NCBI GenBank assembly: GCA_025458545.1 | Contig: JALOSH010000014.1 | Coordinates: forward strand, 1 to 17,231 | Length of the DNA: 17,231 bases | Direction of reading: 5' to 3' | DNA from: Hydrogenophaga sp. | GTDB lineage: Bacteria > Pseudomonadota > Gammaproteobacteria > Burkholderiales > Burkholderiaceae | Notes under the pieces: generated by a model | Told to the model about the DNA's origin: nothing | Seen by the model: the letters and a program-made list of their open reading frames with translations, nothing else | Databases searched by the model: none | Made by a program: the position numbers and the translations under genes | Shown here: piece after piece, positions 1 through 14,907 of the stretch | How the letters are laid out: each line of letters begins with the position of its first letter | Numbering within the stretch: position 1 is the stretch's first letter

Positions 1-207
1 TCGCAGTTCGTGCTGGCGGCCTACCAGCAAGCCAGGTTGCCACTCACCAGCGCCGACCCGCTGCTGGTCAGCCCGGCCGACCTGCTGTACATGCGAGCAG
101 GCGACGTGCCCTCGGTCCGCACCGAACAGGCGCTGCTGTATGTGGGCCACCTCAAGTCCGGGCGGGCGGCGGTGGAGACGGAAGTCGCTCTGCGCGCAAA
201 CGACTGA
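1..207 (+). CDS. 3' end of an unrecognised gene (partial)
   Basis: An open frame is already running at base 1 and ends at a TGA at 205-207, giving the last 68 residues of a protein whose start lies outside the window. The fragment has no membrane segment, no cysteine and no motif I recognise. It reads as an ordinary soluble domain end, with a basic stretch (HLKSGR) and a short charged tail. Third-position GC is high, like the neighbouring genes, which supports real coding. A GTG at position 10 is in frame but there is no reason to call it a start, because the frame continues upstream. It is convergent with the lipoprotein gene at 468-965. I cannot assign a function. Confidence 0.6.
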   Translation, partial: SQFVLAAYQQARLPLTSADPLLVSPADLLYMRAGDVPSVRTEQALLYVGHLKSGRAAVETEVALRAND

Positions 208-221
208 TCGGAGAGACCGGC

Positions 222-252
222 GATCCGCCGACGGGCAGCCCCAAGGCGGATC
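222..252 (+). terminator. Hairpin after the partial gene, possible terminator
   Basis: GATCCGCC (222-229) and GGCGGATC (245-252) form a perfect 8-bp inverted repeat with a 15-base loop, starting 15 bases after the stop codon of the partial gene. No T-run follows, so it is not a canonical intrinsic terminator. It could act as one weakly or as an mRNA 3'-end stabiliser. Its right arm overlaps the first base or two of the tandem repeat block. Confidence 0.3.
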
Positions 253-467
253 AGCCCCCTTGGGGGGCAAGGAGCACACGCAGTGAGCGACTGTGGAGGC
301 TCAAAGACCGCAGCGAAGGGCCGCCCCGAGCAAGGTCAGCCCCCTTGGGGGCAAGGAGCACACGCAGTGAGCGACTGTGGAGGCTCAACGACCGCAGCGA
401 AGGGCCGCCCCGAGCAAGGTCAGCCCCCTTGGGGGGCAGCGACCCGCGCAGCGGTGGAGCGTGGGGG
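251..467. repeat. Tandem GC-rich intergenic repeat, 2.5 copies of ~85 bp
   Basis: Two near-identical tandem units are visible: 251-335 (85 bp) and 336-419 (84 bp). They differ by one G in the run after CCCCCTT and by A/C at a single site (tcaaagacc versus tcaacgacc). A partial third unit (420-467) starts with the same TCAGCCCCCTTGGGGGG, then changes to an end sequence closing with GTGGGGGTCA. Each unit carries the short self-complementary core CCCCCTTGGGGG. Repeats of this appearance are common between genes in Comamonadaceae (from general knowledge). The last bases of the block, read on the minus strand, supply the TGA stop of the lipoprotein gene at 468. Small open frames inside the block are repeat artefacts. 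Confidence 0.8.
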
Positions 468-965
468 TCAATTCCCCACATGCATGGCGAACACCGCGCC
501 GTTGTTCAGGCGGCAGGTGCCGGTGCCCAGGGTGGCCGAGTTCATCGTGTACTGGCAGCTCAGGTAACCGCCACGGTTGCCCGCGCCGCTGGCCAGGCCT
601 TCGCGTGACGAACCCGCCTTGCGCGTGGCCTCGCCCACAAAACTCTCACCGTTGATGTTCGCGTTGAAACTGCCACGACCCTGCAGGTCGTTGGTCACCG
701 TGGCGTTGATCACGCCGTAGCCGCTGGCCTGCGGGTTGGCCGGGTAGAGCCGGGCGGGAAAGGTGAGCGGCAACGCAGGCGCAGGCGCGGGCGCCGTCAC
801 CACCGGCGCTCCGCTTGGCAAAGACGCTGGCTGACCGGTGCGCGGGTCGATCGGCACCACGTAGCAGCCCGCCAGCGTGGCCACCGCGCTGGCCAGACCC
901 AGCGCCACCAGGCCACGGCGCGCGGCGGGAGAGACAGACACGGCGTTCAACGACAAAGTCCTCAT
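468..965 (-). CDS. Small outer-membrane-type lipoprotein of unknown function
   Basis: The 165-residue product has a lipoprotein signal: basic start (RR at 17-18), hydrophobic stretch 19-31 and lipobox L-A-G-C with Cys34 as the lipidated residue. A proline/alanine-rich linker (about 45-70) follows. The C-terminal domain (about 72-165) has a glycine-rich, beta-type pattern, two cysteines (137 and 151) that could pair, and an ending of the form GTGTCRLNNGAVFAMHVG. I do not recognise a named family. The start at 963-965 is preferred over an in-frame ATG 13 codons upstream, because AGAGGA lies just before it and it puts the positive charge at the N terminus. Residue 35 is Tyr rather than Asp, so outer-membrane sorting is expected. 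The stop codon lies at the edge of the tandem repeat block, and the gene is divergent from the MFS transporter. Confidence 0.8.
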   Translation of the reverse strand: MRTLSLNAVSVSPAARRGLVALGLASAVATLAGCYVVPIDPRTGQPASLPSGAPVVTAPAPAPALPLTFPARLYPANPQASGYGVINATVTNDLQGRGSFNANINGESFVGEATRKAGSSREGLASGAGNRGGYLSCQYTMNSATLGTGTCRLNNGAVFAMHVGN

Positions 966-1147
966 ACAGATCCTCTTGGCCCCAGCACATGCTGGTGGCG
1001 CCATCGTGTCGACCCTGGGTGAAGAAATGTCGAACCGCGTGCGAAGAACCGTAAAGCTGATCCAGTGGTCGAGCGGCAGACCACAACCTGCGCCACGGGT
1101 CAGCCCGGCGACAAGGCTTGTGGTGCCGAGCCCTTTACAGTGCAGCC
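966..1147. promoter_or_regulatory. Divergent intergenic region, lipoprotein / MFS
   Basis: These 182 bases must hold the promoters of the divergent lipoprotein and MFS genes. A near-perfect palindrome, CCAGCACATGCTGG, lies at 982-995, about 17 bases upstream of the lipoprotein start and therefore probably inside its leader. On the minus strand a weak TTTACG / GACATT pair with an 18-base gap (about 1031-1060) could be a sigma-70 promoter. No convincing promoter is seen for the MFS gene. Confidence 0.3.
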
Positions 1148-2335
1148 ATGACGACAGCCGCTGTGCCCCGCCACATCCTGCCCGTGCTGGTGCTCGCCCA
1201 GTTCGCCGGCACCTCGCTGTGGTTCGCGGTCAACGCCGTCATGCCCGACCTGCAGCGGGAACTCGGCTGGCCGGCCAGCGCCGTGGGGCCACTCACCTCG
1301 GCGCTGCAGTTCGGCTTCATCGTCGGCACGCTGGTGTTTGCGCTGCTGGCCATCGCCGACCGCTTTGCACCGCGCCGGGTGTTCCTGTTCTGCGCGCTGG
1401 CGGGTGCGGGCTGCACCGTCGGCGCCTGGGCCATGGTCACGCACTACGAAGCGCTGCTCGTGTGGCGCTTCCTCACCGGCGTGTTCCTGGCCGGCATCTA
1501 CCCGGTGGGTATGAAGATCGCCGCGCAGTGGTACACCAAGGGCCTGGGCGCGGCGCTCGGCCTACTGATCGGCGCACTGGTGCTCGGCTCGGCCAGTGCG
1601 CACGCGCTGCGCGCGCTCAGCGGCAGCCTGCCCTGGCCCACGCTCATGCTCGGTGTGGCGGCGCTCGCTGCCGCCGGCGGGCTGCTGCTGTACTGGGGCA
1701 CCAGCGACCCGCCCCACGCCCAGGCCCGGGTCACCACCCTGCAATGGCGGGCGCTGGCCACGGTGTGGACGGATGGCCGCGTGCGCGCCTCGGTGCTGGG
1801 CTACTTTGGTCACATGTGGGAGCTGTACACCGTGTGGGTGATGGTGCCGCTGGTGCTGGCCACGCGCCTGAGCGGCACCGATGTGTCGTGGGCGGCGTTC
1901 TGGGTGCTGGGCGCGGGCGCGCTGGGCTGCGCCGGCGGCGGCTGGGTGGCGCTGCGCTGGGGCAGCGCGCGCGTGGCCACGCTGCAGCTGGGCATCAGCG
2001 GGTTGTGCTGCCTGGCCACGCCGTTGGCCATCGACGCGCCGGCGCCGCTGTTCTACGGCTGGCTGCTGCTCTGGGGCATCACCGTCTCGGGCGACTCGCC
2101 GCAGTTTTCCACCCTCACCGCGCGCAACGCGCCTCCGCAGGCCGTGGGCAGCGTGCTCACGCTCACCAACAGCATCGGTTTCGGCATCTCCATCGTGAGC
2201 ATCCTGCTGTTCGTCTCGCTCGCAGAAACGGTGAGCCTGGGCGCCCTGCTGCCCTGGCTGGCGGTGGGCCCGGCACTCGGTTTGTGGGCCATGGTGCGGC
2301 TGGTGCGCGAGGAACGGCGCCCCGCCAGCCCCTGA
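1148..2335 (+). CDS. MFS transporter, 12 membrane segments
   Basis: This 395-residue protein belongs to the major facilitator superfamily. Hydrophobic segments run from about residue 9 to the C terminus in two blocks, separated by a more polar loop near residues 195-210. A motif-A-like sequence A-D-R-F-A-P-R-R lies between helices 2 and 3 (residues 70-77), where the superfamily expects its D-R-x-G-R-R signature. Length is normal for a 12-helix MFS protein. Substrate cannot be told from sequence; metabolite or drug export are both possible. The ATG at 1148 is chosen over an in-frame TTG ten codons upstream, because it puts a short polar tail before helix 1, although no strong Shine-Dalgarno is present. 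Its stop lies only 3 bases from the stop of the convergent zinc-ribbon gene, so the transcripts must overlap. Confidence 0.88.
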   Translation: MTTAAVPRHILPVLVLAQFAGTSLWFAVNAVMPDLQRELGWPASAVGPLTSALQFGFIVGTLVFALLAIADRFAPRRVFLFCALAGAGCTVGAWAMVTHYEALLVWRFLTGVFLAGIYPVGMKIAAQWYTKGLGAALGLLIGALVLGSASAHALRALSGSLPWPTLMLGVAALAAAGGLLLYWGTSDPPHAQARVTTLQWRALATVWTDGRVRASVLGYFGHMWELYTVWVMVPLVLATRLSGTDVSWAAFWVLGAGALGCAGGGWVALRWGSARVATLQLGISGLCCLATPLAIDAPAPLFYGWLLLWGITVSGDSPQFSTLTARNAPPQAVGSVLTLTNSIGFGISIVSILLFVSLAETVSLGALLPWLAVGPALGLWAMVRLVREERRPASP

Positions 2336-2338
2336 CAC

Positions 2339-3415
2339 TCAGGCTGGGCTGGCCGAAGCAGCTTCTGGCCGCTGTTGCAGCGATTCGGCCGACGTGCCAC
2401 ACGAAAAGCAGTAGCGCGCAAACGCGTTCTTGCGCGTCTTGCAGTGGCCGCAGTGGTCAAACAGGCACAGGCCACAGTGCGGGCAGAAGTCGGTCTTGCC
2501 GTCCTTCATGTCCACCGTGCGCTCGCAACCGGGACAAATGTTCTTGGTCATCCGCGCCTGCGCCTGGTCATAGTCCATCTCGCGCTGGCGCGTCTGGGCC
2601 GGCTGCGCTTCCGCCAGTTTCTGCCGCTCCAGATACCGCTGCAGCGCCTGGATCGCATAGCGGCCGCCGATCACCGTGAGCACGATGCCCACGATGTAGC
2701 GCACATAGCCGCCATAGCTGGGCAGGTAGGGCACCAGCTCGACAAAGAAGGCGAACAGCGCGAAAAAGATGAAGCCCCACACAAACGGCCACGACGATCC
2801 CTTGCGGTGCTTCTTGAACAGGTAGCCCGCCAGCGCCAGCAGGGGCAGCGTGAGCGCCACTCGGTAAATGAAGACCCGGAGCTCCTGCGCGCGCTGGGAT
2901 TCCACATACGTGTCGCGCGCCGCGTCCTCCAAGGTGCGCAGTTCGGACTGCGCACGCTGCTGCGCCTGGCGCGCGTCCAGCGCCACCTGCTGCTGCTTTT
3001 CCACCAAGGCGAAGGCATCGCGTTCGCGCTGGCGAAGTTCGTCCAGCTCGCGCGTGCGCTGCAGCACCTGCTCGTCTTGCTCGGCACGCTGCGTGACGCT
3101 GCGCGTGGCCAGCCAGTTGTCGAAGGTCTCGCGCGCGGCGCGGTTGTCGGCCCGAGCGGTCTGCAGCTTGAGCTGCGCCTGTTCCAGCGCAGCCTGGGCC
3201 TCTTCGGCGGAACGCTCGGCGGTCTTGATGGACGCCTTCAACTCGGGCGTGCGCTGCGGGTCCATGAAGTCTTCCAGCGAACGGGTCTGCTCGACCTGCG
3301 GCAGATCGCCCACGATGGTGCTGCCCAGGCCGGTCAGGAACCAGGCGAACAGAAATGCCACCAGCCACAGGCCGCGGTGGAACCACTTTTCAGACAGTCG
3401 CAAGGTCTTGCTCAT
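2339..3415 (-). CDS. Membrane protein with coiled coil and C-terminal nine-cysteine zinc ribbon
   Basis: The 358-residue protein has a clear modular layout. Membrane segment 1 spans about 15-33. A long charged, Glu/Gln/Arg/Ala-rich coiled coil spans about 55-180. Three further hydrophobic segments lie at about 182-200, 208-230 and 236-255. A C-terminal metal-binding tail (291-340) has cysteines at 294, 297, 311, 314, 317, 322, 325, 336 and 339, arranged as C-x2-C pairs like a double zinc ribbon. I infer that the coiled coil is periplasmic and the zinc ribbon cytoplasmic, or the reverse, depending on the number of crossings. The start at 3413-3415 follows GGAAG at good spacing; longer upstream frames lack this. 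It lies 101 bases downstream of the J-domain/PilZ gene on the same strand, with no strong terminator between, so co-transcription is plausible. Function unknown; a scaffold or quality-control role is speculation. Confidence 0.85.
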   Translation of the reverse strand: MSKTLRLSEKWFHRGLWLVAFLFAWFLTGLGSTIVGDLPQVEQTRSLEDFMDPQRTPELKASIKTAERSAEEAQAALEQAQLKLQTARADNRAARETFDNWLATRSVTQRAEQDEQVLQRTRELDELRQRERDAFALVEKQQQVALDARQAQQRAQSELRTLEDAARDTYVESQRAQELRVFIYRVALTLPLLALAGYLFKKHRKGSSWPFVWGFIFFALFAFFVELVPYLPSYGGYVRYIVGIVLTVIGGRYAIQALQRYLERQKLAEAQPAQTRQREMDYDQAQARMTKNICPGCERTVDMKDGKTDFCPHCGLCLFDHCGHCKTRKNAFARYCFSCGTSAESLQQRPEAASASPA

Positions 3416-3516
3416 GGGGTCACTTCCAGGTCGGTTGGGTTCGCGGCATTGTGACCGGTTCTGTACCGGCCATCGATCCCGGTCATGGCCTGGGCGGGAA
3501 CGGTGGTGTCGCGGGC

Positions 3517-4254
3517 TCACGCCCGAGAGTTCACATACACACCACGCGCCTGCTGCTGCATCAGCAGGGTCAGCAGCCGCCCATGCAGGGCGTGACCGCT
3601 GCGCAGGCGCCGACTGCCCACCACGGCGAACAAGGCGTCGAACCACGGTGCCACCACACGCACCACCTGGCCACCCGGCAGTGGCTCGGCCGCGTGCAAT
3701 TGCAGCCCGGAAAAAGACAGGTCCTGGAGTCGGGCGGATCGGGCGCGTTGCTCGCCCGGCAGCCAGAGCTGAACGATCGCGTCGCGGGCGAAGCGCGGAT
3801 CGCGCCGGCGACCCTGGTGTTCATCGCGCGTGCGGGTGCGCGACAGGGGTTCCGGCAGGGGTGCCAGCGGGCTGTGGCATCCGATGCAGCGGCTGTCGCG
3901 CCGCAGCGCACCCGCATGGGGCCGCTGGCAGAAAGGGCAAACGGTGGCGACGCTTTGGGCTGCGCCACCGGCGCCCGAACGCTGCGGGGTGGCACCGTGG
4001 CCAGCGGACGGATCGTCCTGGTGCGCGGCGCCTGCCGACCCCTGTGGCCGGTGGTCGTAGGCCGCGCGCCGCACCGGGTCGCCCAGCACCTCGTAGGCAG
4101 CGTTCAAGCGCACGGCGGTGTCGTGGTCGCCGCCAAGATCGGGGTGGACGCGCCGCGCACTCATGAGCGCGCGCCAGGCGGCCTTGATCACCTCGGGCGG
4201 TGCGTCGGGCTGCACGTAGAGGGTGCGGTAGTGGTCGAGCGGCTCTCGGTTCAT
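3517..4254 (-). CDS. J-domain / zinc-knuckle / PilZ fusion protein
   Basis: The 245-residue protein joins three modules. Residues 6-68 are a J domain with the HPD motif intact (37-39) and the ending A-A-Y-x-V-L-G-D-P-x-R-R-A-A-Y-D typical of DnaJ helix III-IV. Such domains stimulate DnaK ATPase. After a Gly/Ala/Pro linker, C-P-F-C (106-109) and C-I-G-C (123-126) form a probable zinc knuckle. Residues about 148-240 are a PilZ domain, with the c-di-GMP-binding R-x-x-x-R (R150, R154) and D-x-S-x-x-G (178-183) both intact. By family knowledge such a PilZ domain binds c-di-GMP; coupling of this signal to chaperone recruitment is inference. The protein lacks the G/F and C-terminal substrate domains of DnaJ, so it is a type III J protein. 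The ATG at 4252-4254 has a weak ribosome site. It is divergent from the ProQ gene and upstream of the membrane zinc-ribbon gene. Confidence 0.85.
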   Translation of the reverse strand: MNREPLDHYRTLYVQPDAPPEVIKAAWRALMSARRVHPDLGGDHDTAVRLNAAYEVLGDPVRRAAYDHRPQGSAGAAHQDDPSAGHGATPQRSGAGGAAQSVATVCPFCQRPHAGALRRDSRCIGCHSPLAPLPEPLSRTRTRDEHQGRRRDPRFARDAIVQLWLPGEQRARSARLQDLSFSGLQLHAAEPLPGGQVVRVVAPWFDALFAVVGSRRLRSGHALHGRLLTLLMQQQARGVYVNSRA

Positions 4255-4429
4255 GGGGATTCGATGGCCGGGTCGGGTACCGGGCCGTGTTCAGGGTATC
4301 GACCAGCGGGCACCAGGCTTGAACACAGCGACCGGCAGGCCGCTCCTCGCTCGTTGCGAGACGGTATTGGTCGGGCTGGCATGATGTCGGGCCTGCCCGG
4401 CTCCCGGGTGGCTCCATCTTTGCTCCGCC
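4255..4429. promoter_or_regulatory. Divergent intergenic region, J-PilZ / ProQ-like
   Basis: This 175-base region separates two divergent starts and should hold both promoters. I see no strong -35/-10 pair, no clear operator palindrome and no riboswitch-like structure. CATGAT near 4380-4385 is the best -10-like hexamer for the ProQ-like gene, but it lacks a matching -35. Confidence 0.25.
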
Positions 4430-5221
4430 ATGAACGCCTCTGCCGACCACGACACGCCCGACAACGCCGCTTCCGCACCCGCTGCCAGCCCCGCTGCGGC
4501 CGACGCCGCCCGCCCGCCCCGGCGCGGTGAGGGCCGCAACGGTGGTGGACGTGGCCGCAACGGCGGCAACCGCCCACAACGCCCGGCCAGCACCCAGCGC
4601 CCCACCGGCGCCGCGCCCGCTGCCGCGCGCCAGCACCCGGTGCTGGACCAGTTGGCCGCGCTGTACCCGGCGCTGTTTGGCGAGTCCTTGTTGCCGCTCA
4701 AACGCGGCATCTATGAAGACCTGCTGGCGGCGCATCCCGGGGTGCTGGACAAAGACGGCCTGAAGACCGCACTGGGGCTGCACGCGCGCTCGTCGCGCTA
4801 CCTCACGGTGGTGGCCTCGGGCCTGCCGCGGCACGACCTGAGTGGCCAGCCGGTGGAAGCGCTCACGCCCGAGCAAGTGCACCATGCACTGATCGAAGTG
4901 TTTCGCCGACGCGGCGCACGCAGCCGCGAAGACCTGCGCCCCAAGTTGCGCCAGCGCATCCTCAAGGCGTTTGAGGCCTCTGGCCTGTCGCCCGACGACT
5001 ACACCCAGCGTGTGCTGGGCCGCGACGAAGAAGTGAACCAGCTCACCCGCGACGCCTTGGCCGAGGCCAGCGCCCGCGCCGCGCGCGAAGACGCCCTGTT
5101 GCGCACCTTTGAAGCCAGTGGCAAACCGATCAACGAGTTTGCCGACATGTACGGCCTGCACATCCTGGACGCCAACCGTTCGCTGGAGCGGGCCCGCGCC
5201 CGGCAGGCGGCGAAGGCCTGA
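4430..5221 (+). CDS. ProQ/FinO-family RNA chaperone
   Basis: The 263-residue protein contains a ProQ/FinO domain at about 66-172, recognised from V-L-D-Q-L-A-x-L-Y-P-x-L-F, P-L-K-R-G-I-Y-E-D-L and the K-T-A-L-x-x-H segment followed by S-S-R-Y-L. FinO-domain proteins bind structured RNAs, including 3' ends of small RNAs and terminators, and act as RNA chaperones. In front lies a disordered tail (1-65) rich in Ala/Pro with an Arg/Gly/Asn-rich patch (31-51). Behind lies a helical, charged extension (about 175-263) unlike the C-terminal Tudor-like domain of E. coli ProQ. Whether it is the functional equivalent of ProQ cannot be told, so no symbol is given. It is divergent from the J-domain/PilZ gene and convergent with the FIST gene 33 bases away. 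Confidence 0.88.
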   Translation: MNASADHDTPDNAASAPAASPAAADAARPPRRGEGRNGGGRGRNGGNRPQRPASTQRPTGAAPAAARQHPVLDQLAALYPALFGESLLPLKRGIYEDLLAAHPGVLDKDGLKTALGLHARSSRYLTVVASGLPRHDLSGQPVEALTPEQVHHALIEVFRRRGARSREDLRPKLRQRILKAFEASGLSPDDYTQRVLGRDEEVNQLTRDALAEASARAAREDALLRTFEASGKPINEFADMYGLHILDANRSLERARARQAAKA

Positions 5222-5226
5222 TGCCG

Positions 5227-5244
5227 GGCGGCCGACCGGCCGCC
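5227..5244. terminator. GC hairpin between convergent genes
   Basis: GGCGGCC (5227-5233) pairs with GGCCGCC (5238-5244) around a four-base loop, midway between the convergent stop codons of the ProQ-like gene (5221) and the FIST gene (5255). It has no T-run on either strand, so terminator function is only suggested by placement and strength. Confidence 0.35.
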
Positions 5245-5254
5245 ACCCGAGCGA

Positions 5255-6535
5255 TCAATCGCCCGGGGTGGTGAACACGGTGAGCACGCCGGTGTAGCCG
5301 TAGAGTTGCCGGTGCGCGATTTCACCGCCGGCAAAAAAGCCCACCAGCGGCACATCGCCCAAGGCCCGGCGCACGATCTGCAGTTCGGCGCTGGGGGCGC
5401 CAAAATGCAGGCCGCCGCGCCCGGAGCAGCTGACGTACACCGCCCCGGCGATGCGGCGCGCGGGCACGGGAGGTGCCTCGGGCAGTCCGAACCCCTCTCC
5501 CATGCCCATGGTTTCGGACTCCAGCTCTTCGCGGATTTCGCTGCACACGCGCATGAGGTCGGCGCGCGCCGCGTTCGCATGGCGCTCGCAAAACGCGAGC
5601 CGGGCGCCGGGTTGTGGACGGGCGGCCACCGCGATGCCGCGGCGGCTGGGGTCCAGGCCAATGACATGCCGCACCGTCACGTCCGCGCCGAACTGGCCGC
5701 GGGTGTGCCGCTGGCGTGCGGCATCAGCGGGCAGGTGCTGCGGGTCGGTCAGGCCCACCAGGGTGGAGCGCAATCGTTCGATCGCCTCGCGCGGCCGGTC
5801 GAGCGAGAGCTCGAACTCGCGCAGCAGCACATCCAGCGCGGGCTCGCCGTCGAGCGCCAGCACCAGGTTGCCGTCGACAGCGGTGATGACGCGCTCACGG
5901 TCCACCGGCTGCGCGCCCTGGGTGACGCGGGAGACGATCTCCACCCCGGGCCCGAAGGCCACGCCGCTCAACCCGCCCAGGAACACGCCACTGGCCGCAC
6001 CCTGGCCCTGCAGATGACCGGCGCTGCTGGCCGCGAACTGCACGCTGGCCGCCCGACTACCAGCGAGCCCACCGAACACATAACCGGTGGTGGTGCGGTC
6101 GGCCACCTCCACGATCAGGTCGGCCAGGTCGGGCGTGCCGGCATCGGCGTGCACCAGCGCCGTGTGCGGCACGAATCCCCCCGGGCCGGCACTGGCCGCC
6201 AGCGGCGCCACACCGCTGAACACCCGGTACTGGTCAGGGGTCAGGTCGCACAGCATCACAGCCAGCGCGGGCTCGTCGATGTACTCCACATTGGTGGCCG
6301 CGATGCCCACGCCGACCGTGCCCACCCAGTCGGTCACTTCGGGCAACTCGGCGCTGAAGCATTCCAGGATGTCTTGCGCCTGGTGGGCATAGTGGTCGGT
6401 GATGTAGAGCATGCCCAGCGAGGGCGCGCTGGCGTGGCCCGGCAAAGCCATCTGCGCCCGCAACTGGGCCAGGGCCAGCGCAGCGGCCATGCGCCATTGC
6501 GGGTGGGTGGCGTGGGCAAAAAGAAAGCGCTTCAT
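5255..6535 (-). CDS. FIST-domain ligand-sensor protein (FIST_N plus FIST_C)
   Basis: The 426-residue protein matches the layout of stand-alone FIST proteins. The N-terminal FIST half (about 30-220) includes G-M-L-Y-I-T-D at 41-47, a V-G-T-V-G-V-G strand at 71-77 and G-Y-V-F-G-G-L-A-G at 151-159. The C-terminal FIST_C half (about 225-420) ends with V-P-L-V-G-F-F-A-G-G-E-I-A at 395-407 and Y-G-Y-T-G-V-L-T-V-F. FIST domains are thought to sense small ligands such as amino acids; here no kinase, cyclase or chemotaxis domain is attached. The start at 6533-6535 is chosen because MKRFLFAHAT is the family-like N terminus, and any longer frame would run into phaM. It lies 40 bases downstream of phaM on the same strand, so probably in the same transcript. 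Its ligand and output are unknown. Confidence 0.85.
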   Translation of the reverse strand: MKRFLFAHATHPQWRMAAALALAQLRAQMALPGHASAPSLGMLYITDHYAHQAQDILECFSAELPEVTDWVGTVGVGIAATNVEYIDEPALAVMLCDLTPDQYRVFSGVAPLAASAGPGGFVPHTALVHADAGTPDLADLIVEVADRTTTGYVFGGLAGSRAASVQFAASSAGHLQGQGAASGVFLGGLSGVAFGPGVEIVSRVTQGAQPVDRERVITAVDGNLVLALDGEPALDVLLREFELSLDRPREAIERLRSTLVGLTDPQHLPADAARQRHTRGQFGADVTVRHVIGLDPSRRGIAVAARPQPGARLAFCERHANAARADLMRVCSEIREELESETMGMGEGFGLPEAPPVPARRIAGAVYVSCSGRGGLHFGAPSAELQIVRRALGDVPLVGFFAGGEIAHRQLYGYTGVLTVFTTPGD

Positions 6536-6575
6536 GCCAGGCGGAGGGTGTTCAAACAGTGCACCGGTGGTCGGT

Positions 6576-7697
6576 TCAGCGTCCGCGCTTGCGCGACCCG
6601 GCGGCAGCGGCCTTCTTGGCCGGCGTCTTTTTGGCCGGCGCCTTGCGGGCAACGGCAGGCGCCTTGGCTGCGGCGGCGGCCGCCGGCTGGAAGCCCGGGA
6701 AAAACGCGGTGGGCAAGGTCCAGTCGCCAGGCGACAGGGGCTGCACTGCGCTGGCCCGCGGCGCTGCTGCGGCATTGCGCCGAGGAGCAGCTTCGGGCTT
6801 AGAGGCTTTGCGGACCCCCGCTTTCTGGGCGGTGGCCTTTTGGGCGGCGGCCCGGGGCGCGGACTTCGACTGCGCCTTCTGGCCACCCGTCACGGCGCGC
6901 GCTGCGGCTTTTCCCATGCCCACGGCATTGCCCACGTTGCGCGCCACGCTGCCGGCCGCCTTGCCGGCCATGCCGGTGGCGGTTTTCACGGCCTGCTCGG
7001 TCAGGCCGGTGGCGACCTGGCGTGTGGTGTCCAGTGCAGACTGTTTGGCCACGTCCTTCATGGCGGTGGCGGCGATGTTCTGGAACTGCTGCGAGAGCGC
7101 ACCCCACCATTGCAACGGGTCCACGACGCCGCCGGCGGGTGCAGGCGCTGCGGATTTGCGGGCTGGCGCCTTGCGTGGCTTGGGGGCTGGAGCGGCGGCG
7201 GCCTCCGGCGCTGGCTCTTCTTCGTCCTCGATCTCTTCTCCGGTCTCGGGCTCGGGGGCAGCGGGCGTGCCATAGGTGCGCGGAGGAATCTCCAGACCAG
7301 CAAACTGCGTGGGCGCGGGCGCGGGCGCAGCGCCGGTGAAACCGGCCACCGCGTCGGCGGCCTTGATCTTGAGCGCGTTGGCCACATCGCCCAGGCTGAA
7401 GTTCATGTTCTTCAGCGTGGCCAGCGTCATCTTCTGCACCTCCAGCGCCTGGATGGTGGCGCCCAGGGCCTTGGAGTTCTGGTCGAGCCAGAAGTGCACC
7501 GCCTTCAATTCCTCAATGCGTTTTTCGAGGTCTTCCACGTTGAAGGTCGGCGCGACCCAGTTGCCCAGGTTGGGCATCTGCGGGATGCTGTTGCCGATGC
7601 CCTGGGCCACGCCCCCCGCGGCCTGGCCCGCCAGGCTCTGCAGGAATTCGAAGCCCGGCACGTATTTGCCGAAACCGCTGCCCGGTGTGTCGCTCAT
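6576..7697 (-). CDS. phaM: PhaM-type polyhydroxyalkanoate granule regulatory protein
   Basis: The N-terminal part (about 10-115) has the PhaM pattern: F-L-Q-S-L-A-G, P-T-F-N-V-E-D-L-E-K-R-I-E-E-L-K-A-V, W-L-D-Q-N, and I-Q-A-L-E-V-Q-K-M-T-L. In Ralstonia eutropha PhaM binds the PHB synthase PhaC1 and activates it, sits on granules and ties them to the nucleoid through a basic tail. Here a Pro/Ala linker with an acidic run (149-162) follows, then a second amphipathic part (about 190-260, with D-P-L-Q-W-W-G). The Lys/Ala/Pro-rich histone-like tail contains two PAKK units (354-357, 359-362) and ends RKRGR. At 373 residues it is much longer than the roughly 260-residue Ralstonia protein. AGGAG stands at good spacing before the ATG. 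It lies 50 bases after the crotonase-fold gene and 40 before the FIST gene. Confidence 0.88.
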   Translation of the reverse strand: MSDTPGSGFGKYVPGFEFLQSLAGQAAGGVAQGIGNSIPQMPNLGNWVAPTFNVEDLEKRIEELKAVHFWLDQNSKALGATIQALEVQKMTLATLKNMNFSLGDVANALKIKAADAVAGFTGAAPAPAPTQFAGLEIPPRTYGTPAAPEPETGEEIEDEEEPAPEAAAAPAPKPRKAPARKSAAPAPAGGVVDPLQWWGALSQQFQNIAATAMKDVAKQSALDTTRQVATGLTEQAVKTATGMAGKAAGSVARNVGNAVGMGKAAARAVTGGQKAQSKSAPRAAAQKATAQKAGVRKASKPEAAPRRNAAAAPRASAVQPLSPGDWTLPTAFFPGFQPAAAAAAKAPAVARKAPAKKTPAKKAAAAGSRKRGR

Positions 7698-7747
7698 GGG
7701 AGTCTCCTGGTGGGTCGCTCTGGGGTCTGCTGGCGGGGTCGCTGTGC

Positions 7748-8587
7748 TCAGTGGTCCACGCCATAGCGGGGTGCGCGACGCTCCCGCAAGGATGCCACAC
7801 CTTCGCGCACATCGGGGCCGGCAAACCCCATGAATTCAAGCGCCAGCGAGGTGTCGAACGCGGGTCCGGCCTGGCGCAACCAGTTGTTGAGCGAGTACTT
7901 GGTCCAGCGGATCGCGGTCTGGCTGCCCGAGGCCAGGCGGTCCGCCACCTCGTAGGCCTTGTCGAGCAGCTGGGCGTCGTCCACCGCGAGCGACACCAGA
8001 CCGATCCGCTCGGCCTCTTCGCCACTGATCGGGTCGCACAGCATGAGGTAGTACTTGGCCTTGGCCAGGCCGCAGAGCAGCGGCCAGACGATGGCGGCGT
8101 GGTCACCGGCCGCCACACCCAGGCGGGTGTGACCATCGACGATCTTGGCGCTCTTGGCGGCGATCGAAATGTCGGCCAGCAGCCCAGCCACCAGCCCCGC
8201 GCCCACCGCCGGCCCGTGCATCGCGCTGACGATGGGTTTGTCGCAGTTGATGACGTTGTAGACCAGGTCGCGCGCTTCCTTCCAGACCCGGGTGCGGACC
8301 TCGAAGTCGGTCGCCATGTCCTGCACCAGCGCCAGGTCGCCGCCGCCCGAAAAACCCATGCCGCTGCCGCGCAGCACCGCGCAACGCACCGTGTCGTCGC
8401 GGCCCACGTCGCGCCAGATCTCGGACAGCTCCCAGTGGCCTTCGTGCCCAGCGGTGGGCAGCTTGCCGTTGCCACCAGGACCATCGGCGCGCATCTGGAT
8501 GTCGAGCACCGAGGGCACCCCGTTGACGGCCGGTCCGCGGCGGCTGATGGCAAGGGTCTGGTAGCGGCTGTAGTCCACGGGGGTCAT
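7748..8587 (-). CDS. Crotonase-superfamily (enoyl-CoA hydratase-like) protein, atypical active site
   Basis: The 279-residue protein has the crotonase fold. The first oxyanion-hole segment is [10 protein letters not shown] (76-85) and the second is [10 protein letters not shown] (123-132), both of which hold the CoA thioester. Aligned by eye with rat mitochondrial enoyl-CoA hydratase, the two catalytic glutamates (E144, E164) fall at Val133 and His153. A conserved-looking G-D-H-A-A follows at 161-165. It is therefore unlikely to be a standard hydratase; another crotonase reaction is likelier. TCTCC on the plus strand (8593-8597) gives a GGAGA ribosome site 5 bases before the ATG. It is the first gene of the minus-strand cluster with phaM and the FIST gene, which suggests a link to CoA-thioester or PHA metabolism (inference). 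Substrate unknown. Confidence 0.85.
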
Positions 8588-8603
8588 GCGGGTCTCCGGT
8601 GCG

Positions 8604-8623
8604 GGGCTGCGCGCAGGCAGCCC
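8604..8623 (-). other. Hairpin in the leader of the crotonase-fold gene
   Basis: GGGCTGC (8604-8610) and GCAGCCC (8617-8623) form a perfect 7-bp stem with a 6-base loop. It lies just upstream of the ribosome binding site of the minus-strand gene starting at 8587, so it would sit in that mRNA's leader. No function can be assigned. Confidence 0.4.
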
Positions 8624-8681
8624 GAATGGGGTGAAGGGTTTCAACGGGGAATTCTGCCCCTTCCGTTGGCTCGAAACCGAA

Positions 8682-8720
8682 GCGAACGGGCGGTGTTTTC
8701 CCGGGCACCTCCCCGTTCGC
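8682..8720. repeat. Inverted repeat in the divergent control region
   Basis: GCGAACGGG (8682-8690) and CCCGTTCGC (8712-8720) are perfect 9-base arms. Inside them GGTG (8692-8695) can pair with CACC (8706-8709), extending the stem after a small bulge. The element ends 9 bases before the FNR-type palindrome and lies between the divergent crotonase-fold and DksA-like genes. It could be a regulator site, or the hairpin of a transcript reading in either direction. Confidence 0.55.
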
Positions 8721-8728
8721 ATACCCCG

Positions 8729-8742
8729 TTGACGTGCGTCAA
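8729..8742 (+). promoter_or_regulatory. FNR/CRP-family operator, TTGAC-N4-GTCAA
   Basis: The sequence TTGACGTGCGTCAA is a perfect inverted repeat of TTGAC around four bases, matching the FNR/ANR/DNR-type consensus (TTGAY-N4-RTCAA). Its centre (8735.5) is 86.5 bases before the start codon at 8822. If transcription starts near 8777, the centre would be at -41.5, the standard class II activator position, and a -10-like CAAGAT lies exactly where expected. Regulator identity (FNR, ANR, DNR or another family member) is not determined by the site. Confidence 0.65.
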
Positions 8743-8764
8743 ACACCGGCACCGGATACCGGCG

Positions 8765-8770
8765 CAAGAT
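8765..8770 (+). promoter_or_regulatory. Candidate -10 box of the FNR-type promoter
   Basis: CAAGAT keeps the A at position 2 and the A-T at positions 5-6 of TATAAT, and is placed so that a start near 8777 gives -41.5 spacing to the palindrome. There is no good -35 box, as expected for a class II activator-dependent promoter. Confidence 0.4.
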
Positions 8771-8821
8771 AGCTTCAAAGGGGGTCGGCCACCGTCGGCT
8801 CCCGGCGACCAGGAGCATCCG

Positions 8822-9208
8822 ATGACCATGAACATTTCCGAAACCTTCAACGACCAGTTGCACCAGATGCGGGCCGAGTTGCTGGCGCAGATTCGCGCCC
8901 AGCGGGGCGGCCAGATCGGACGTGCCGAATCGGCCGCCGAGGCGCGTGAGAACGCCAGCGACGACTGGTCCCAGGCCGATGCCGAGCGCGATCTGGCGTT
9001 CGCGCTGGAAGAGCGCGGGTCGGCCGAACTGGTCGCGATCGACGATGCGCTGAGGCGGATTGCCGACGGCAGTTACGGCCTGTGCCTCGACTGTGGTGTG
9101 CAGATCGCCAACGCGCGCCTGCACGCCAATCCGACCGCCCTGCGCTGCGTGGCCTGCCAGGAAAAACTCGAACAAGCCGAAGACGGCGTGCGCCCGGCCA
9201 GCTACTGA
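8822..9208 (+). CDS. TraR/DksA-family zinc-finger transcription regulator
   Basis: The 128-residue protein has a helical N-terminal part (1-80) forming a probable coiled coil, with an acidic tip around S-D-D-W (46-49). A C4 zinc finger follows: C-L-D-C-G (88-92) and C-V-A-C-Q (109-113), after the family-typical I-A-D-G-S-Y-G-L-C and with A-R-L-x-A-x-P-T-A between the pairs. Family members bind RNA polymerase through the secondary channel and change promoter output, often with ppGpp. It is shorter than housekeeping DksA (about 150 residues) and the tip lacks the D-P-x-D-R-A pattern, so it is a paralogue rather than DksA itself. AGGAG at 8811-8815 favours the ATG at 8822 over 8828. It is first of a two-gene unit behind an FNR-type site. 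Confidence 0.88.
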
Positions 9209-9246
9209 ACGCTTTCATTTTTTCAACCCTCCCAGGAGACCCCCGA

Positions 9247-9624
9247 ATGACCACCTTCCACGCCGTTGTCTGGATGGACCACAGCCAGGCCCATGTGCTG
9301 ATGTTCGACAAGGAACACATCGAAGCCCAGCGCATCAAGGCGCGCAGCCACCACACCCCCAAGCACGGCCATGTCGGTCCCGACAAGGATTTCTTCCAAC
9401 AGGTGGCCGATGCGCTGGCCGGCGTGTCCGAGGTGCTGCTGACCGGCCCGGCCAATGCGAAGAACGAATTCCGCGACCACTGCAAACACCACGCGCACGC
9501 GGTGGACAAGGCGGTGGTCGACGTGGTCAGCAGCGACCACCCGACCGACGGCCAGTTGGTGGCAATGGCACGGCAGTATTTCGTGAAGTTCGATCAGAAA
9601 GCCGCCGACCCGACGCAGCGGTAG
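9247..9624 (+). CDS. Small eRF1-like 'translational machinery' protein
   Basis: The 125-residue protein starts T-T-F-H-A-V-V-W-M-D-H-S-Q-A and contains many histidines, a helix (48-59) and the strand/turn E-V-L-L-T-G-P-A-N-A-K (62-72), followed by F-x-x-H and H-P-T-D-G-Q-L-V-A. This is the pattern of proteins annotated in proteobacteria as translational machinery protein or host-attachment-like, related to the core fold of release factor eRF1/Pelota. No biochemical role is firmly established for this group; ribosome-associated or stress-linked action is inference from the fold. AGGAG at 9234-9238 gives a good start at 9247. It follows the DksA-like gene by 38 bases and ends before a strong terminator, so the two form one transcription unit. 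Confidence 0.78.
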   Translation: MTTFHAVVWMDHSQAHVLMFDKEHIEAQRIKARSHHTPKHGHVGPDKDFFQQVADALAGVSEVLLTGPANAKNEFRDHCKHHAHAVDKAVVDVVSSDHPTDGQLVAMARQYFVKFDQKAADPTQR

Positions 9625-9634
9625 AAGGCCACGC

Positions 9635-9670
9635 AAAGCCCGCAGGCCCCCCCGTCGGCGGGCTTTTGTT
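9635..9670 (+). terminator. Intrinsic terminator of the DksA-like / eRF1-like unit
   Basis: AAAGCCCGC (9635-9643) pairs perfectly with GCGGGCTTT (9658-9666) around a 14-base C-rich loop. The T-run of the right arm continues as TTTTGTTATT. It starts 10 bases after the stop codon at 9624 and ends only about a dozen bases before the next start codon. Confidence 0.85.
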
Positions 9671-9681
9671 ATTCTGTGGCG

Positions 9682-10122
9682 ATGTCCATTCAGTCCTCCA
9701 CTCTGCCCGCGCGAGCCCTGTTTCACCTCGCGTTCCACGTCACCGATCTGGCTGAAGCGCGCCGCTTCTACGGCAGTGTGCTGGGCTGTGCGGAAGGCCG
9801 CAGCACCGACACCTGGGTCGACTTCGATTTCTTCAGCCACCAGATTTCGCTGCACTTGGGCGAACCGTTCAAGACCACGCTCACCGGGCGCGTGGGCGAC
9901 CACCTGGTCCCCATGCCGCACTTCGGGCTGGTGCTGTTGTTGCCCGAATGGCAGGCCCTGGCCGCAAGGCTGGAGTCGGCGGGGATGGACTTTGTGTTGC
10001 CGCCGCAGCAGCGCTTTGCAGGCCAGCCAGGCGAGCAGTGGACCATGTTCTTCTGCGATCCCTTTGGCAACCCGATCGAGGTCAAAGGGTTTGCCTCGGT
10101 GGACCGCATCTACGCGCAGTGA
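9682..10122 (+). CDS. VOC/glyoxalase-fold protein (dioxygenase-like)
   Basis: The 146-residue protein is a two-module vicinal-oxygen-chelate protein. The first beta-alpha-beta unit starts F-H-L-A-F-H-V-T-D-L (14-23), with R-R-F-Y-G-S-V-L-G-C (27-36). The second ends F-F-C-D-P-F-G-N-P-I-E-V-K-G-F (123-137). Probable metal ligands are His15 or His19, His80 and Glu133. VOC proteins include glyoxalases, extradiol dioxygenases and resistance proteins; the substrate here cannot be read from sequence. The ATG at 9682 is used; a GTG two codons upstream is possible. Neither has a Shine-Dalgarno. It begins about a dozen bases after the preceding terminator, so it has either a promoter inside the terminator region or depends on read-through. 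The following 129 bases up to the binding-protein gene show nothing clear. Confidence 0.82.
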   Translation: MSIQSSTLPARALFHLAFHVTDLAEARRFYGSVLGCAEGRSTDTWVDFDFFSHQISLHLGEPFKTTLTGRVGDHLVPMPHFGLVLLLPEWQALAARLESAGMDFVLPPQQRFAGQPGEQWTMFFCDPFGNPIEVKGFASVDRIYAQ

Positions 10123-10251
10123 GCGCACCACCGAGCGACCGGCGGTGCCTTTGGCCTGCCGAGCGACGGTCGTGCAGGGGACGCAGTCGGTAGCATGGAC
10201 GGTTCGTCGTTGGCTCTGGCCATCCCCTGTCCGATCAGCCCCTCCTCCCCC

Positions 10252-11406
10252 ATGACAACCCCTCATTCCCAGCGCGGCCTCTCCCGGCGCGCTTTTGGCG
10301 GCCTGATGGCCGGCGCCTCGCTGCTCGGCAGCCCGGTGCTCCGTGCCCAGACCGGCAACCGCATCGTGCTCGGCCAATCGGCCGCGCTGTCGGGCGCGGC
10401 CGCCCAGCTGGGCATCCAGTTCCACGCCGGTGCCAAGCTGTTTTTTGACGCCATGAATGCGCAGGGCGGCGCCAACCCGACGCGGGTCGAGATCCGCCAG
10501 ATGGACGACGGCTACGAGCCCAACCGCTGCGCTGAGAACACCCGCCAGCTGCTCGGCGAAGACGTGTTCGCCCTGTTCGGCTACATCGGCACGCCCACCA
10601 GCCTGGCGGCGCTGCCACTCGCCACCAAAGCCCAAACACCGTTCTTTGCGCCGTTCACCGGCGCCATGGGTCTGCGCCAACCGTTCAACCGCATGGCTTT
10701 TCACATGCGCGCGTCGTACAACGACGAAACCGCGCTCATCGTGCGGCAGCTGACCAACCTCGGCCTGAAGAAGATCGCGGTTTTTCACCAGAACGACGCC
10801 TACGGCAAGGCGGGCCTTGACGGCGTGACGCTCGCGCTCGCCGCGCAGCAGCTGCAACCGGTGGCCACCGCCACGGTGGAGCGCAATTCGGTGGACGTGG
10901 CCAAGGCGGTCGCCACCATCAACGCGGCACAGCCCGACGCGGTGGTGCAGGTGAGCGCCTATGCCTCTTGCGCCGCCTACATCCGCGCCGCACGCAAGGC
11001 CGGTTTTGGGGGCACGTTTTTCAATGTGTCGTTCGTCGGCACCCAGGCGCTGGCGGACGAGCTGGGCAAAGACGGCGCCGGGGTGGTGGTGTCGCAGGTG
11101 GTGCCCACGCCCTACAGCGCGTCGCGCCAGGTGACGCGCGAGTTCCTGGCGGCGGTGGAACAAGGCGGCAAAAAGGTCCAGCCCAACTTTTCCAGCATGG
11201 AAGGTTTCATGGCCGCCAAGCTGTTTGCCGAGGGCATGCGGCGGGCCAGCGGTCGCCTCACCCGCGAAAGCCTGATCGATGGCCTGGAAAGCATCCGGGA
11301 CCTGTCCATGGGCGGGTTCAGCGTGTCATTCAGCCCGACCGACCATGTGGCGTCCAAGTTCGTCGAACTCTCCATGCTCACCGGCGACGGCCGGGTGAGG
11401 ACCTGA
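10252..11406 (+). CDS. ABC-type branched-chain amino-acid-like binding protein, Tat signal
   Basis: The 384-residue protein is a periplasmic type 1 substrate-binding protein (LivK-like, Peripla_BP_6). It starts with a twin-arginine signal, S-R-R-A-F-G-G (11-17), and a hydrophobic stretch, with likely cleavage near V-L-R-A/Q-T (29-34). The mature protein begins I-V-L-G-Q-S-A-A-L-S-G, the first strand and ligand loop of this family, followed by G-A-K-L-F-F-D-A-M-N-A-Q-G-G. Later F-G-Y-I-G-T-P-T and the hinge regions fit, and length is normal. Exporting a folded binding protein by Tat is less usual than by Sec, though twin-arginine starts are common in this family in betaproteobacteria. The ATG at 10252 is used because the signal starts there. 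No permease or ATPase gene is nearby, so it is an orphan component. It converges with the fumarylacetoacetate hydrolase gene 27 bases on. Confidence 0.88.
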   Translation: MTTPHSQRGLSRRAFGGLMAGASLLGSPVLRAQTGNRIVLGQSAALSGAAAQLGIQFHAGAKLFFDAMNAQGGANPTRVEIRQMDDGYEPNRCAENTRQLLGEDVFALFGYIGTPTSLAALPLATKAQTPFFAPFTGAMGLRQPFNRMAFHMRASYNDETALIVRQLTNLGLKKIAVFHQNDAYGKAGLDGVTLALAAQQLQPVATATVERNSVDVAKAVATINAAQPDAVVQVSAYASCAAYIRAARKAGFGGTFFNVSFVGTQALADELGKDGAGVVVSQVVPTPYSASRQVTREFLAAVEQGGKKVQPNFSSMEGFMAAKLFAEGMRRASGRLTRESLIDGLESIRDLSMGGFSVSFSPTDHVASKFVELSMLTGDGRVRT

Positions 11407-11433
11407 GCTCGGCGCGCACCCGGCGCCACCCGG

Positions 11434-12447
11434 TCAGGCGGTCTGCAGCGGCGCGATTTTCTGATCGATCGCGCCAAAGATGCTCTGACCGTCCCGGCCC
11501 TTCATCTCGATGCGGATGGTGTCGCCGAATTTCATGAACTCGGTGCTCGGCTGGCCGTCGAGGATGGTTTCGATGCAGCGCTTTTCGGCGATGCAGCTGT
11601 AGCCCTTGGGCCATTCTTTCTTGCCGTCCACCTCCACACCCCGGTTGCTCACCGTGCCGCTGCCGATGACGGAACCGGCGCGCACGTTGCGCGTCTTGCA
11701 AACGTGGGCGATCAGCTGGCCGAAGTGGAAGGTCATGTCCGGGCCGGCCTCACACATGCCGACCTTGCGGCCGTTCCAGGTGCTCTGCAGCGTCAGGTGC
11801 ACGCGGCCGCCGGTCCACGCGTCGCCCAGCTCGTCGGGCGTGACCGCCACCGGGCTGAAAGCGCTGGCCGGCTTGCTCTGGAAGAAGCCGAAGCCCTTGG
11901 CCAGCTCGGCCGGGATCAGGTTGCGCAGCGACACGTCGTTCACCAGCATCAGCAGGCGCACGCCGTCCAGCGCCTGTTCGGGTGTGGCACCCATGGGCAC
12001 ATCGCCCGTGACCACGGCGATTTCGGCCTCGAAGTCGATGCCGAAGTCTTCGCTCGGCACGACCACGTCGTCGCAAGGGCCGATGAAGTCGTCGCTGCCG
12101 CCCTGGTACATCAGCGGGTCGGTGTAGAACGTGGCCGGCACCTCGCTGCTGCGGGCGGCGCGCACCAGTTCCACATGGTTGATGTAGGCCGAGCCGTCGG
12201 CCCACTGGTAGGCGCGCGGCAGCGGCGCCATGCACAGCGCGGGATCGAACGGAAACGCGTGGCGCGCCTTGCCCTGGTTCAGCGTCACGTAGAGGTCGTG
12301 CAGTTGGGGGCTGAGGAAGTTCCAGTCGTCCAGCACCTGCTGCATCTTGTGGGCGATGCCAGTCGCATAATGGGCCGTGCTCAGATCGCGTGAGACCACC
12401 ACCAGTTGTCCGTCGCGCGAGCCGTCTTTGTAAGTGGCGAGTTTCAT
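11434..12447 (-). CDS. Fumarylacetoacetate hydrolase-family protein
   Basis: The 337-residue protein has the metal and catalytic residues of fumarylacetoacetases by eye alignment with the mammalian enzyme. D110 (in Y-T-D-P) matches D126, E140 and E142 (D-F-E-A-E-I) match E199 and E201, D171 (N-D-V-S-L-R-N) matches D233, R175 matches R237 and K192 matches K253. The family cleaves C-C bonds in beta-diketo acids, using Mg or Ca. The length, with an N-terminal domain (about 1-80), fits the bacterial fumarylacetoacetase group of tyrosine/homogentisate breakdown, but related acylpyruvases share these residues. The start at 12445-12447 gives the family-like MKLATYKDGSRDG. It is divergent from an IclR regulator with a 192-base shared control region, so regulation by that protein is likely. 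Homogentisate dioxygenase is not in the window. Confidence 0.87.
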   Translation of the reverse strand: MKLATYKDGSRDGQLVVVSRDLSTAHYATGIAHKMQQVLDDWNFLSPQLHDLYVTLNQGKARHAFPFDPALCMAPLPRAYQWADGSAYINHVELVRAARSSEVPATFYTDPLMYQGGSDDFIGPCDDVVVPSEDFGIDFEAEIAVVTGDVPMGATPEQALDGVRLLMLVNDVSLRNLIPAELAKGFGFFQSKPASAFSPVAVTPDELGDAWTGGRVHLTLQSTWNGRKVGMCEAGPDMTFHFGQLIAHVCKTRNVRAGSVIGSGTVSNRGVEVDGKKEWPKGYSCIAEKRCIETILDGQPSTEFMKFGDTIRIEMKGRDGQSIFGAIDQKIAPLQTA

Positions 12448-12513
12448 GCGTGTTTCCTGCTGCCGCAAAATGGGTTGAAGGCTCGGATTCTGCCCGCAAA
12501 GGCATGGAACCAA

Positions 12514-12547
12514 TTACGAATAGTGAAATCAGTTAACCTATCCGTAA
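12514..12547. promoter_or_regulatory. Probable IclR operator between divergent genes
   Basis: TTACGAATAG (12514-12523) and CTATCCGTAA (12538-12547) form an inverted repeat with 9 of 10 matches around a 14-base AT-rich spacer. It lies 66 bases upstream of the fumarylacetoacetate hydrolase start and 92 upstream of the IclR start, in the only clearly AT-rich stretch of the region. Arms of 10 bases and their placement suit a dimeric regulator acting on both genes. On the minus strand TTACGG/ACTATT at 17-base spacing could be a promoter overlapping the repeat. Confidence 0.5.
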
Positions 12548-12639
12548 GATCTGGATTCTAGTTCAAAGCCGTTCGGTGTGCTGAAATCTGCCGGAACGTC
12601 AGCCCGCCAGCATCGCCCCACCACCCCGCATTCACAGCC

Positions 12640-13509
12640 ATGTCCGTTGCCAACCATCCTGCCGCGCCTGCCACGACCGAGCCGACCGATGCGGGCGAAC
12701 CCCTGCGCGCCGGTATCCAGTCGGTGGAGGTCGGTTTCGAGCTGCTCGATGCCTTGTCTCGGGCGCCGGGCGCGCTGATGCTGCGCGATCTGGCCGCCGC
12801 GGCGGGCATGAGCGCGGCCAAGGCGCACCGATACCTGGTGAGTTTTCAACGCATGGGCCTGGTGCTGCAGGACCCGGTCAGCACCCAGTACGACCTCGGC
12901 CCCGCCGCGCTGCGCCTGGGCCTGGCCAGCCTGTCCCGCATCGACGCGGTGAAGCTCGCGCGCGAGAGGGTGGTCGGCCTGCTGCAGGACACCGGCCACA
13001 CACTGGCCATCGCGGTCTGGGGCAACCAGGGGCCCACCATGGTGCACTGGACCGAAGCGCCACAGACGGTGCCGGTCACCCTGCGGCTGGGCGACGTGAT
13101 GCCGCTGCTGACATCGGCCACCGGGCGCTGCTTCGCCGCCTTCATGGGCAGCGAGGGGCGTGACGCGCTGCGCATCGCGCCCATGATCCGCGAAGAGCTC
13201 GCGCGTCTGAAAAAACTCCCGCAGACCGGCACCACACTGACCGACGTGCCACAGACGCTGCAAGACGTGCAGGCCATGCTGGACGAAACCCGCGCGCGCG
13301 GGATGGGCCGTGTGGTGCACAGCCTGTTGCCCGGGGTGGGCGGATTCTGCGCACCGGTGTTCGACGCGCAGGGTCGGCTGGCGCTGGGCCTGGTGCTGCT
13401 CGGCTCGGTGGCCACGCTGGACACCGCCTGGAACGGCGCGCCCGCCGCGGCCTTGCTGCGCTGTGCCCAACAACTGAGCGCCGACCTCGGACACCAGCCG
13501 ACCCGTTGA
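12640..13509 (+). CDS. IclR-family transcriptional regulator
   Basis: The 289-residue protein has the IclR layout. A winged helix-turn-helix (about 25-85) contains G-I-Q-S-V-E-V-G-F-E-L-L-D-A-L, then L-R-D-L-A-A-A-A-G-M-S-A-A-K-A-H-R-Y-L (48-66) as the helix-turn-helix and Y-D-L-G-P-A-A-L-R-L-G at 84-94. A ligand-binding domain follows (about 105-285), with L-L-T-S-A-T-G-R-C-F-A-A (156-167) and G-F-C-A-P-V-F-D (235-242). Members bind as dimers of dimers and respond to aromatic or carboxylic-acid metabolites. The divergent fumarylacetoacetate hydrolase gene is the likely target (inference). The N-terminal 20 residues are a polar extension. The ATG at 12640 lacks a strong Shine-Dalgarno. The DUF3108 gene follows after 6 bases and may be co-transcribed. 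Confidence 0.9.
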   Translation: MSVANHPAAPATTEPTDAGEPLRAGIQSVEVGFELLDALSRAPGALMLRDLAAAAGMSAAKAHRYLVSFQRMGLVLQDPVSTQYDLGPAALRLGLASLSRIDAVKLARERVVGLLQDTGHTLAIAVWGNQGPTMVHWTEAPQTVPVTLRLGDVMPLLTSATGRCFAAFMGSEGRDALRIAPMIREELARLKKLPQTGTTLTDVPQTLQDVQAMLDETRARGMGRVVHSLLPGVGGFCAPVFDAQGRLALGLVLLGSVATLDTAWNGAPAAALLRCAQQLSADLGHQPTR

Positions 13510-13515
13510 ACCCCC

Positions 13516-14802: not shown

Positions 14803-14901
14803 AGCGCAGAAATGTGCCCAAAAACACACGCATCTTGAATCTTCTCGCGCAGTGACCATCTAAAAGCCTGCCCAGACTGAAGTGGCCCGGCCATTTGCCG
14901 A

Positions 14902-14907
14902 TATAAG
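14902..14907 (+). promoter_or_regulatory. Candidate -10 box for the DUF3567 gene
   Basis: TATAAG in the stretch gccgatataagg is the closest match to a -10 hexamer in the 149-base gap 14803-14951, about 45 bases before the start codon at 14952. No clear -35 box is present at normal spacing, so this is tentative. Nothing else is seen in this gap. Confidence 0.3.

Follow-up and report, generated by a model that had tools for sequence, protein, structure and literature searches.

Cyclic di-GMP (c-di-GMP) is known to exert its effects via transcription factors, motors, enzymes and secretion systems; Hsp70 chaperones owe their specialization to J-domain partners. The two meet in CsdK1 and CsdK2 of Myxococcus xanthus, in which a PilZ domain is fused to the Hsp70 system and, in the case of CsdK2, carries the full c-di-GMP motif; in these proteins, PilZ is N-terminal and sits on Hsp70 itself, and the accessible text of the source describes neither a J domain nor a four-cysteine module (PMC10313047). 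According to the accessible part of a second study, 4 of the 24 PilZ proteins of this bacterium contain a DnaK or DnaJ domain, with a possible role in folding or quality control, and, among deletions of all 24, motility defects were caused by loss of plpA, pixA and pixB, and developmental defects by loss of pkn1 and pixB only (PMC8316039). Here we describe a gene from Hydrogenophaga sp. (contig JALOSH010000014.1, positions 1 to 17,231; this whole stretch of 17,231 nucleotides is referred to as the window) that encodes a J domain, a four-cysteine ribbon-like module and a PilZ domain in a single protein of 245 amino acids, which, unlike the CsdK chaperones, contains no HSP70 match in Pfam. The reading that we favour, with modest confidence, is that this protein is a c-di-GMP-responsive co-chaperone of DnaK (Hsp70), with c-di-GMP setting its partner or its place.

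The open reading frame (ORF) runs from 4254 to 3517 on the minus strand, a strand left unstated in an earlier inspection of the bare nucleotides (the sequence-only reading), and consists of 245 codons and a stop. The motif positions reported in that reading (HPD at 37-39, cysteines at 106, 109, 123 and 126, R150 and R154, and D178-x-S-x2-G) are all found at the residues given. The gene and its parts are as follows:

3517..4254, minus strand: J domain–four-Cys ribbon–PilZ gene, 245 amino acids
4054..4236, minus strand: J domain, residues 7-67, four helices in the predicted model
4138..4146, minus strand: HPD tripeptide, residues 37-39, with a two-residue insertion just before it compared with solved J domains
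3952..4026, minus strand: linker, residues 77-101, predicted local distance difference test (pLDDT) score below 50; J-to-ribbon spacing varies in the family
3877..3939, minus strand: CxxC-x13-CxxC ribbon-like module, residues 106-126, delineated by cysteine conservation
3520..3810, minus strand: PilZ domain, residues 149-245, supported by Pfam PilZ and by fold matches to c-di-GMP-bound PilZ structures
3793..3807, minus strand: RxxxR motif, R150 and R154, with R149 just before it
3706..3723, minus strand: [D/N]xSxxG motif, residues 178-183
3520..3543, minus strand: C-terminal tail, G238 to A245, of near-constant length

Domain content and order, motif conservation, the variable linker and the folds follow directly from sequence and structure prediction: in the model, the J fold is followed by a linker of low confidence and by a PilZ barrel resembling c-di-GMP-bound structures. 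Across the family, the distance from the end of the J domain to the ribbon ranges from 18 to 125 residues, and that from R154 to D178 from 23 to 25 (locus set without L078, which is cut by the contig end).

A single-sequence search detected 131 proteins at E <= 0.001; among the best 120, the first 112 (P0002-P0113, with the window protein as P0002) contain the J domain, the cysteine pairs and PilZ, and the remaining eight (P0114-P0121) lack the cysteine pairs or the PilZ motifs. A genome scan yielded 189 encoding stretches, of which the best 80, together with the window (row WIN), make up the 81 rows of the locus set. These best 80 loci include Ideonella isolates, Methyloglobulus, many metagenome-assembled genomes (MAGs) of Beta- and Gammaproteobacteria, and a few labelled Gemmatimonas, Acidobacteria and Desulforhopalus; the Ideonella alba protein (L001) is 55% identical to that of the window. 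With 16 distant members as queries, 3522 of the 7996 proteins scored reached E <= 0.001, some of them sharing the J domain only, and all 119 newly listed homologues (P0122-P0240) contain the cysteine pairs and both PilZ motifs. Part of the motif counts were obtained with regular expressions, and the expression applied to these 119 proteins also accepted Thr in place of Ser. Among additional loci, L081, L082, L091 and L101 duplicate genomes or genes represented by L046, L001, L073 and L054, respectively, L102, L104, L105 and L123 those represented by L036, L056, L043 and L077, and L106-L108 are known from the profile-match row alone.

The sequence-only reading had proposed a survey of the fusion, and such a survey reveals a recurrent but patchily distributed family. 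A profile of the ribbon and PilZ parts (A2) matched 8 of 300 genomes from the order of Ideonella, 6 of 250 from its family and 16 of 369 from its class; 10 of 244 from the order of a Halieaceae member, four of these matches being short stand-alone PilZ proteins; 5 of 201 from the order of Methyloglobulus, including two short frames of 105-107 amino acids; and 2 of 198 from the phylum of L077, with no J domain or ribbon seen in one of the two. Each count takes in the genome at the centre of the draw, and all are lower bounds because scoring stopped after the first 11-20 candidates of each genome; at the threshold used, there was one match per matching genome in every draw. Chance or an assembly artefact was considered as the source of the fusion and rejected because 231 distinct proteins among those listed (112 + 119) show the same domain order and because, in genomes G153 and G1038, the match sits megabases inside one contig. 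The conserved combination marks a protein family rather than a fortuitous fusion. The MAGs labelled as distant phyla (L055, L070, L077, L079 and L080, on contigs of 3.5-27 kb) may be binning errors.

Pfam DnaJ covers residues 7-67 (E 2.5e-10, 40.8 bits, gathering cut-off 27.8) and is matched in all 112 members of the family alignment A1 (E <= 0.01); the predicted fold matches the DnaK-bound J domain 5nro_B and resembles the J domain of CbpA (3ucs), and the HPD tripeptide occupies the loop between helices II and III. HPD-bearing members such as the window protein probably stimulate DnaK. There is no DnaJ_C, the client-binding domain, in the window protein (Pfam, E <= 1), and we lean towards a co-chaperone of the class C kind, that is, a J domain without the DnaJ client-binding domain.

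The central module was called a zinc knuckle in the sequence-only reading, a term that does not fit: the four cysteines form two CxxC pairs in a ribbon-like CxxC-x13-CxxC pattern. They are kept in 112 of 112 proteins and in 80 of 81 locus rows, the exception being the truncated L078. No Pfam zinc family is found in the window protein at E <= 1, and in A1 there are four zinc-type families, each in one of the 112 members (E <= 0.01). Zinc binding by this module is predicted and very likely.

In the PilZ domain, the Pfam match of the window protein taken alone is weak and partial (residues 149-203, E 4.5e-5, 24.2 bits, gathering cut-off 22.5, profile positions 2-55 of 102), but the homologues and the fold back the assignment: PilZ is matched in 104 of the 112 members of A1 (E <= 0.01), and the barrel matches c-di-GMP-bound PA0012, VCA0042 and PP4397. 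The profile search proposed in the sequence-only reading recognizes both DnaJ and PilZ above the gathering cut-offs, and fold and conservation likewise bear out the claim made there of a J domain together with an intact PilZ domain. In the accessible text of PMC3131395, RxxxR together with [D/N]xSxxG defines the c-di-GMP motif of PilZ, and the second motif of the window protein reads D178-L-S180-F-S-G183. R150 and R154 are present in 112 of 112 proteins and, both together, in 79 of 81 locus rows; residue 178 is Asp or Asn in all 112 proteins (108 and 4, respectively) and in 79 of 81 locus rows; S180 and G183 are kept in all 112 proteins and in 80 of 81 rows. Because both motifs are near-invariant over a very diverse family, c-di-GMP is, in all likelihood, bound by this domain. 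R149, just ahead of RxxxR, points to two intercalated c-di-GMP molecules bound to each protein, as is the case for PP4397.

These features can be combined into a putative mechanism. The ribbon-PilZ half would serve as the sensor and target-binding half; c-di-GMP bound across RxxxR and DxSxxG would refold the segment between the ribbon and the barrel; the refolding would alter the partner or the location of the ribbon-PilZ half; and the J domain, on its flexible tether, would deliver DnaK to the ribbon-PilZ partner. In the window protein, the ribbon is on the same side of PilZ as the N-terminal domain of VCA0042, which, in the part of the source available, turns almost 180 degrees and wraps c-di-GMP (PMC3131395). 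The near-invariance of the fusion speaks for a coupling between c-di-GMP and the chaperone, and we rate the chances as even that ligand binding and DnaK stimulation are regulated one by the other.

A second architecture bears on this model. In tandem-J members (L084-L088, L112, L118, L120 and 47 of P0122-P0240), a J domain with a mostly intact HPD is followed by a J-like domain, the ribbon and PilZ, and the J-like domain is without HPD in 46 of the 47 tandem proteins among the 119 newly listed homologues. This second domain could be an internal brake. In mitochondria, Pam16 acts as a brake on Pam18, and, by analogy, a more ambitious and rather doubtful version of our model can be formulated: Hsp70 would be directly answerable to c-di-GMP in a family of proteobacterial proteins, with occasional relatives from MAGs that bear the labels of other phyla, the ligand at ribbon-PilZ would free or hide the tethered J domain, and, in tandem proteins, the HPD-less J would brake the working J.

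Several observations on HPD weigh against a co-chaperone role that is general to the family. Two residues are inserted ahead of HPD in most family members, which might weaken DnaK docking. P0113 and 11 of the 81 locus rows have lost the tripeptide but keep the ribbon and PilZ motifs, and the tree (123 of 205 tails, the remainder being >72% identical to a kept tail) puts the loss on several branches. In the order draw, four of the eight carriers (the tandem-J L084, L085, L087 and L088) have HPD in neither J domain, and in the family draw, two of the five J-bearing carriers (L101 and L102) are without it. The HPD losses imply that DnaK recruitment is not a function of every member; from their sequences, some lineages appear to have dropped the Hsp70 part, the J fold there working without Hsp70 or having become a scaffold. 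Extended to the whole family, this would make the protein an adaptor for c-di-GMP, with a J fold that serves chiefly as a scaffold for protein interactions and an ancestral DnaK recruitment that is being lost. We consider such a general scaffold role unlikely given that HPD is intact in 111 of the 112 listed homologues (all except P0113) and, among the 119 newly listed ones, in all 72 with a single J domain and in the first of the two in 46 of the 47 tandem proteins, a retention that is hard to explain without selection. In the class-wide draw, the 14 members not seen before all bear HPD in their first J, and it is kept in all 51 tree rows of the window's own branch. The rate of HPD loss is uncertain, as HPD was included in one genome-scan pattern and word-based searches favour it.

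Part of the genomic context counts in favour of a c-di-GMP-responsive co-chaperone. All 15 carriers tested have Hsp70, and seven of them bear the HPD-less form (G153, G221, G281, G588, G705, G990 and G991), and GGDEF genes were found in 20 of 20 (10-55 matches each), including G560 with a J-less form. On the other side of the balance, GGDEF genes are also present in 37 of 40 non-carriers, and their median density of 7.9 per Mb in seven carriers does not differ significantly from 5.2 in 40 others (p 0.25; computed without G001, on which that draw was centred), so that enrichment in carrier genomes was rejected. The loci themselves contain 5 GGDEF-motif ORFs in 1.26 Mb, below the roughly 5-8 per Mb seen genome-wide; on this low count, a physical link of the gene to c-di-GMP enzymes was rejected as well, L099 and L056 being single cases. 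Nor was a conserved operon found, relatives of the two neighbours of the window gene being present in 0 of 80 loci (flanks of up to 10 kb, often shorter).

This lack of a general genomic tie to c-di-GMP enzymes is compatible with a DnaK co-chaperone in which PilZ is a client-docking or localization domain, constitutively ligand-bound or specific for another ligand, without switching; in the same vein, CsdK2 of Myxococcus binds its client despite a PilZ-motif mutation in a two-hybrid assay, as far as the accessible text goes (PMC10313047). We judge this possibility improbable because the near-invariance of both ligand motifs in so diverse a family is the ordinary mark of ligand binding. A nucleic-acid-related function like that of the curved DNA-binding CbpA, suggested by source annotations ('curved DNA-binding protein CbpA') and by the CbpA-like J domain, is very improbable in a protein with no DnaJ C-terminal domain, the name probably following the J domain alone.

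Some features of the loci are recorded here in their own right. In L099, the gene for a ribbon-PilZ protein of 170 amino acids that has no J domain (1498-2010, minus strand) starts 13 bases after a GGDEF-EAL-like gene of the same orientation (2024-3415), a case seen only once and counting in favour of the c-di-GMP reading; in L056, the end of a GGDEF-motif ORF lies 18 bases from the gene, in convergent orientation. Recurrent neighbours are restricted to clades. In one MAG clade (L007, L012, L015, L016, L021-L023 and relatives), the gene is followed by a response-regulator-like gene in the same orientation and by a large protein encoded on the opposite strand. In the window, the next gene downstream (2339-3415, minus strand) encodes a protein that, by eye, has membrane-like segments and that carries a double zinc-ribbon at its C-terminus (Pfam DZR, under the cut-off), and the divergent neighbour (4430-5221, plus strand) belongs to the ProQ/FinO family of RNA chaperones (Pfam E 3.1e-24). 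Neighbours were called with a gene caller seeded with the codons of the known gene, which still missed L034, L051 and L071. At the C-terminus, the tail (window 3520-3543) frequently ends in G-x-[FYV]-V-x-x-x-A, in a part where the predicted model is unsure; Gly is at the eighth position from the end in 119 of 119 newly listed homologues and in 177 of the 193 rows that form the first set. A tail of such fixed length could be a docking or degradation signal.

Overall, the family is widespread and apparently unstudied, and c-di-GMP may steer the protein-folding machinery through it. A highly conserved fusion present once per carrier genome offers a small protein for probing whether chaperone action can be directed by a second messenger, and the repeated loss of HPD, together with the HPD-less second J, is a natural experiment on J domains without Hsp70. 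The sequence-only reading knew of no described system, which holds insofar as we found none of the same kind, and fails insofar as PilZ-DnaK chaperones and a brief mention of DnaJ-PilZ proteins exist, both from Myxococcus. No description of the J-ribbon-PilZ family was found in the PubMed Central (PMC) literature, which omits most subscription papers, and DnaJ is unmentioned in the accessible text of reviews of c-di-GMP effectors. The J and PilZ parts are known; their conserved combination and the tandem-J form are undescribed in the PMC literature searched. By published description alone, the DnaJ-containing PilZ proteins of M. xanthus share with the window protein the presence of DnaJ and PilZ in one chain (PMC8316039, accessible text). 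Effectors of the YcgR/VCA0042/PP4397 type share the C-terminal PilZ, the RxxxR at the domain junction and the fold, and differ in having an N-terminal domain of the YcgR-N type where the window protein has the J domain and the ribbon. With DnaJ and CbpA, it shares a J domain with HPD, whereas it has no DnaJ_C match, no G/F region by eye, and the two-residue insertion before HPD that is usual in the family. Finally, AtcJ of Shewanella, like the window protein in our proposed reading, joins a J domain to a small targeting part and so links DnaK to a dedicated partner, but that part, in the portion of the source available, is a 21-residue peptide without a ligand domain (PMC6715715).
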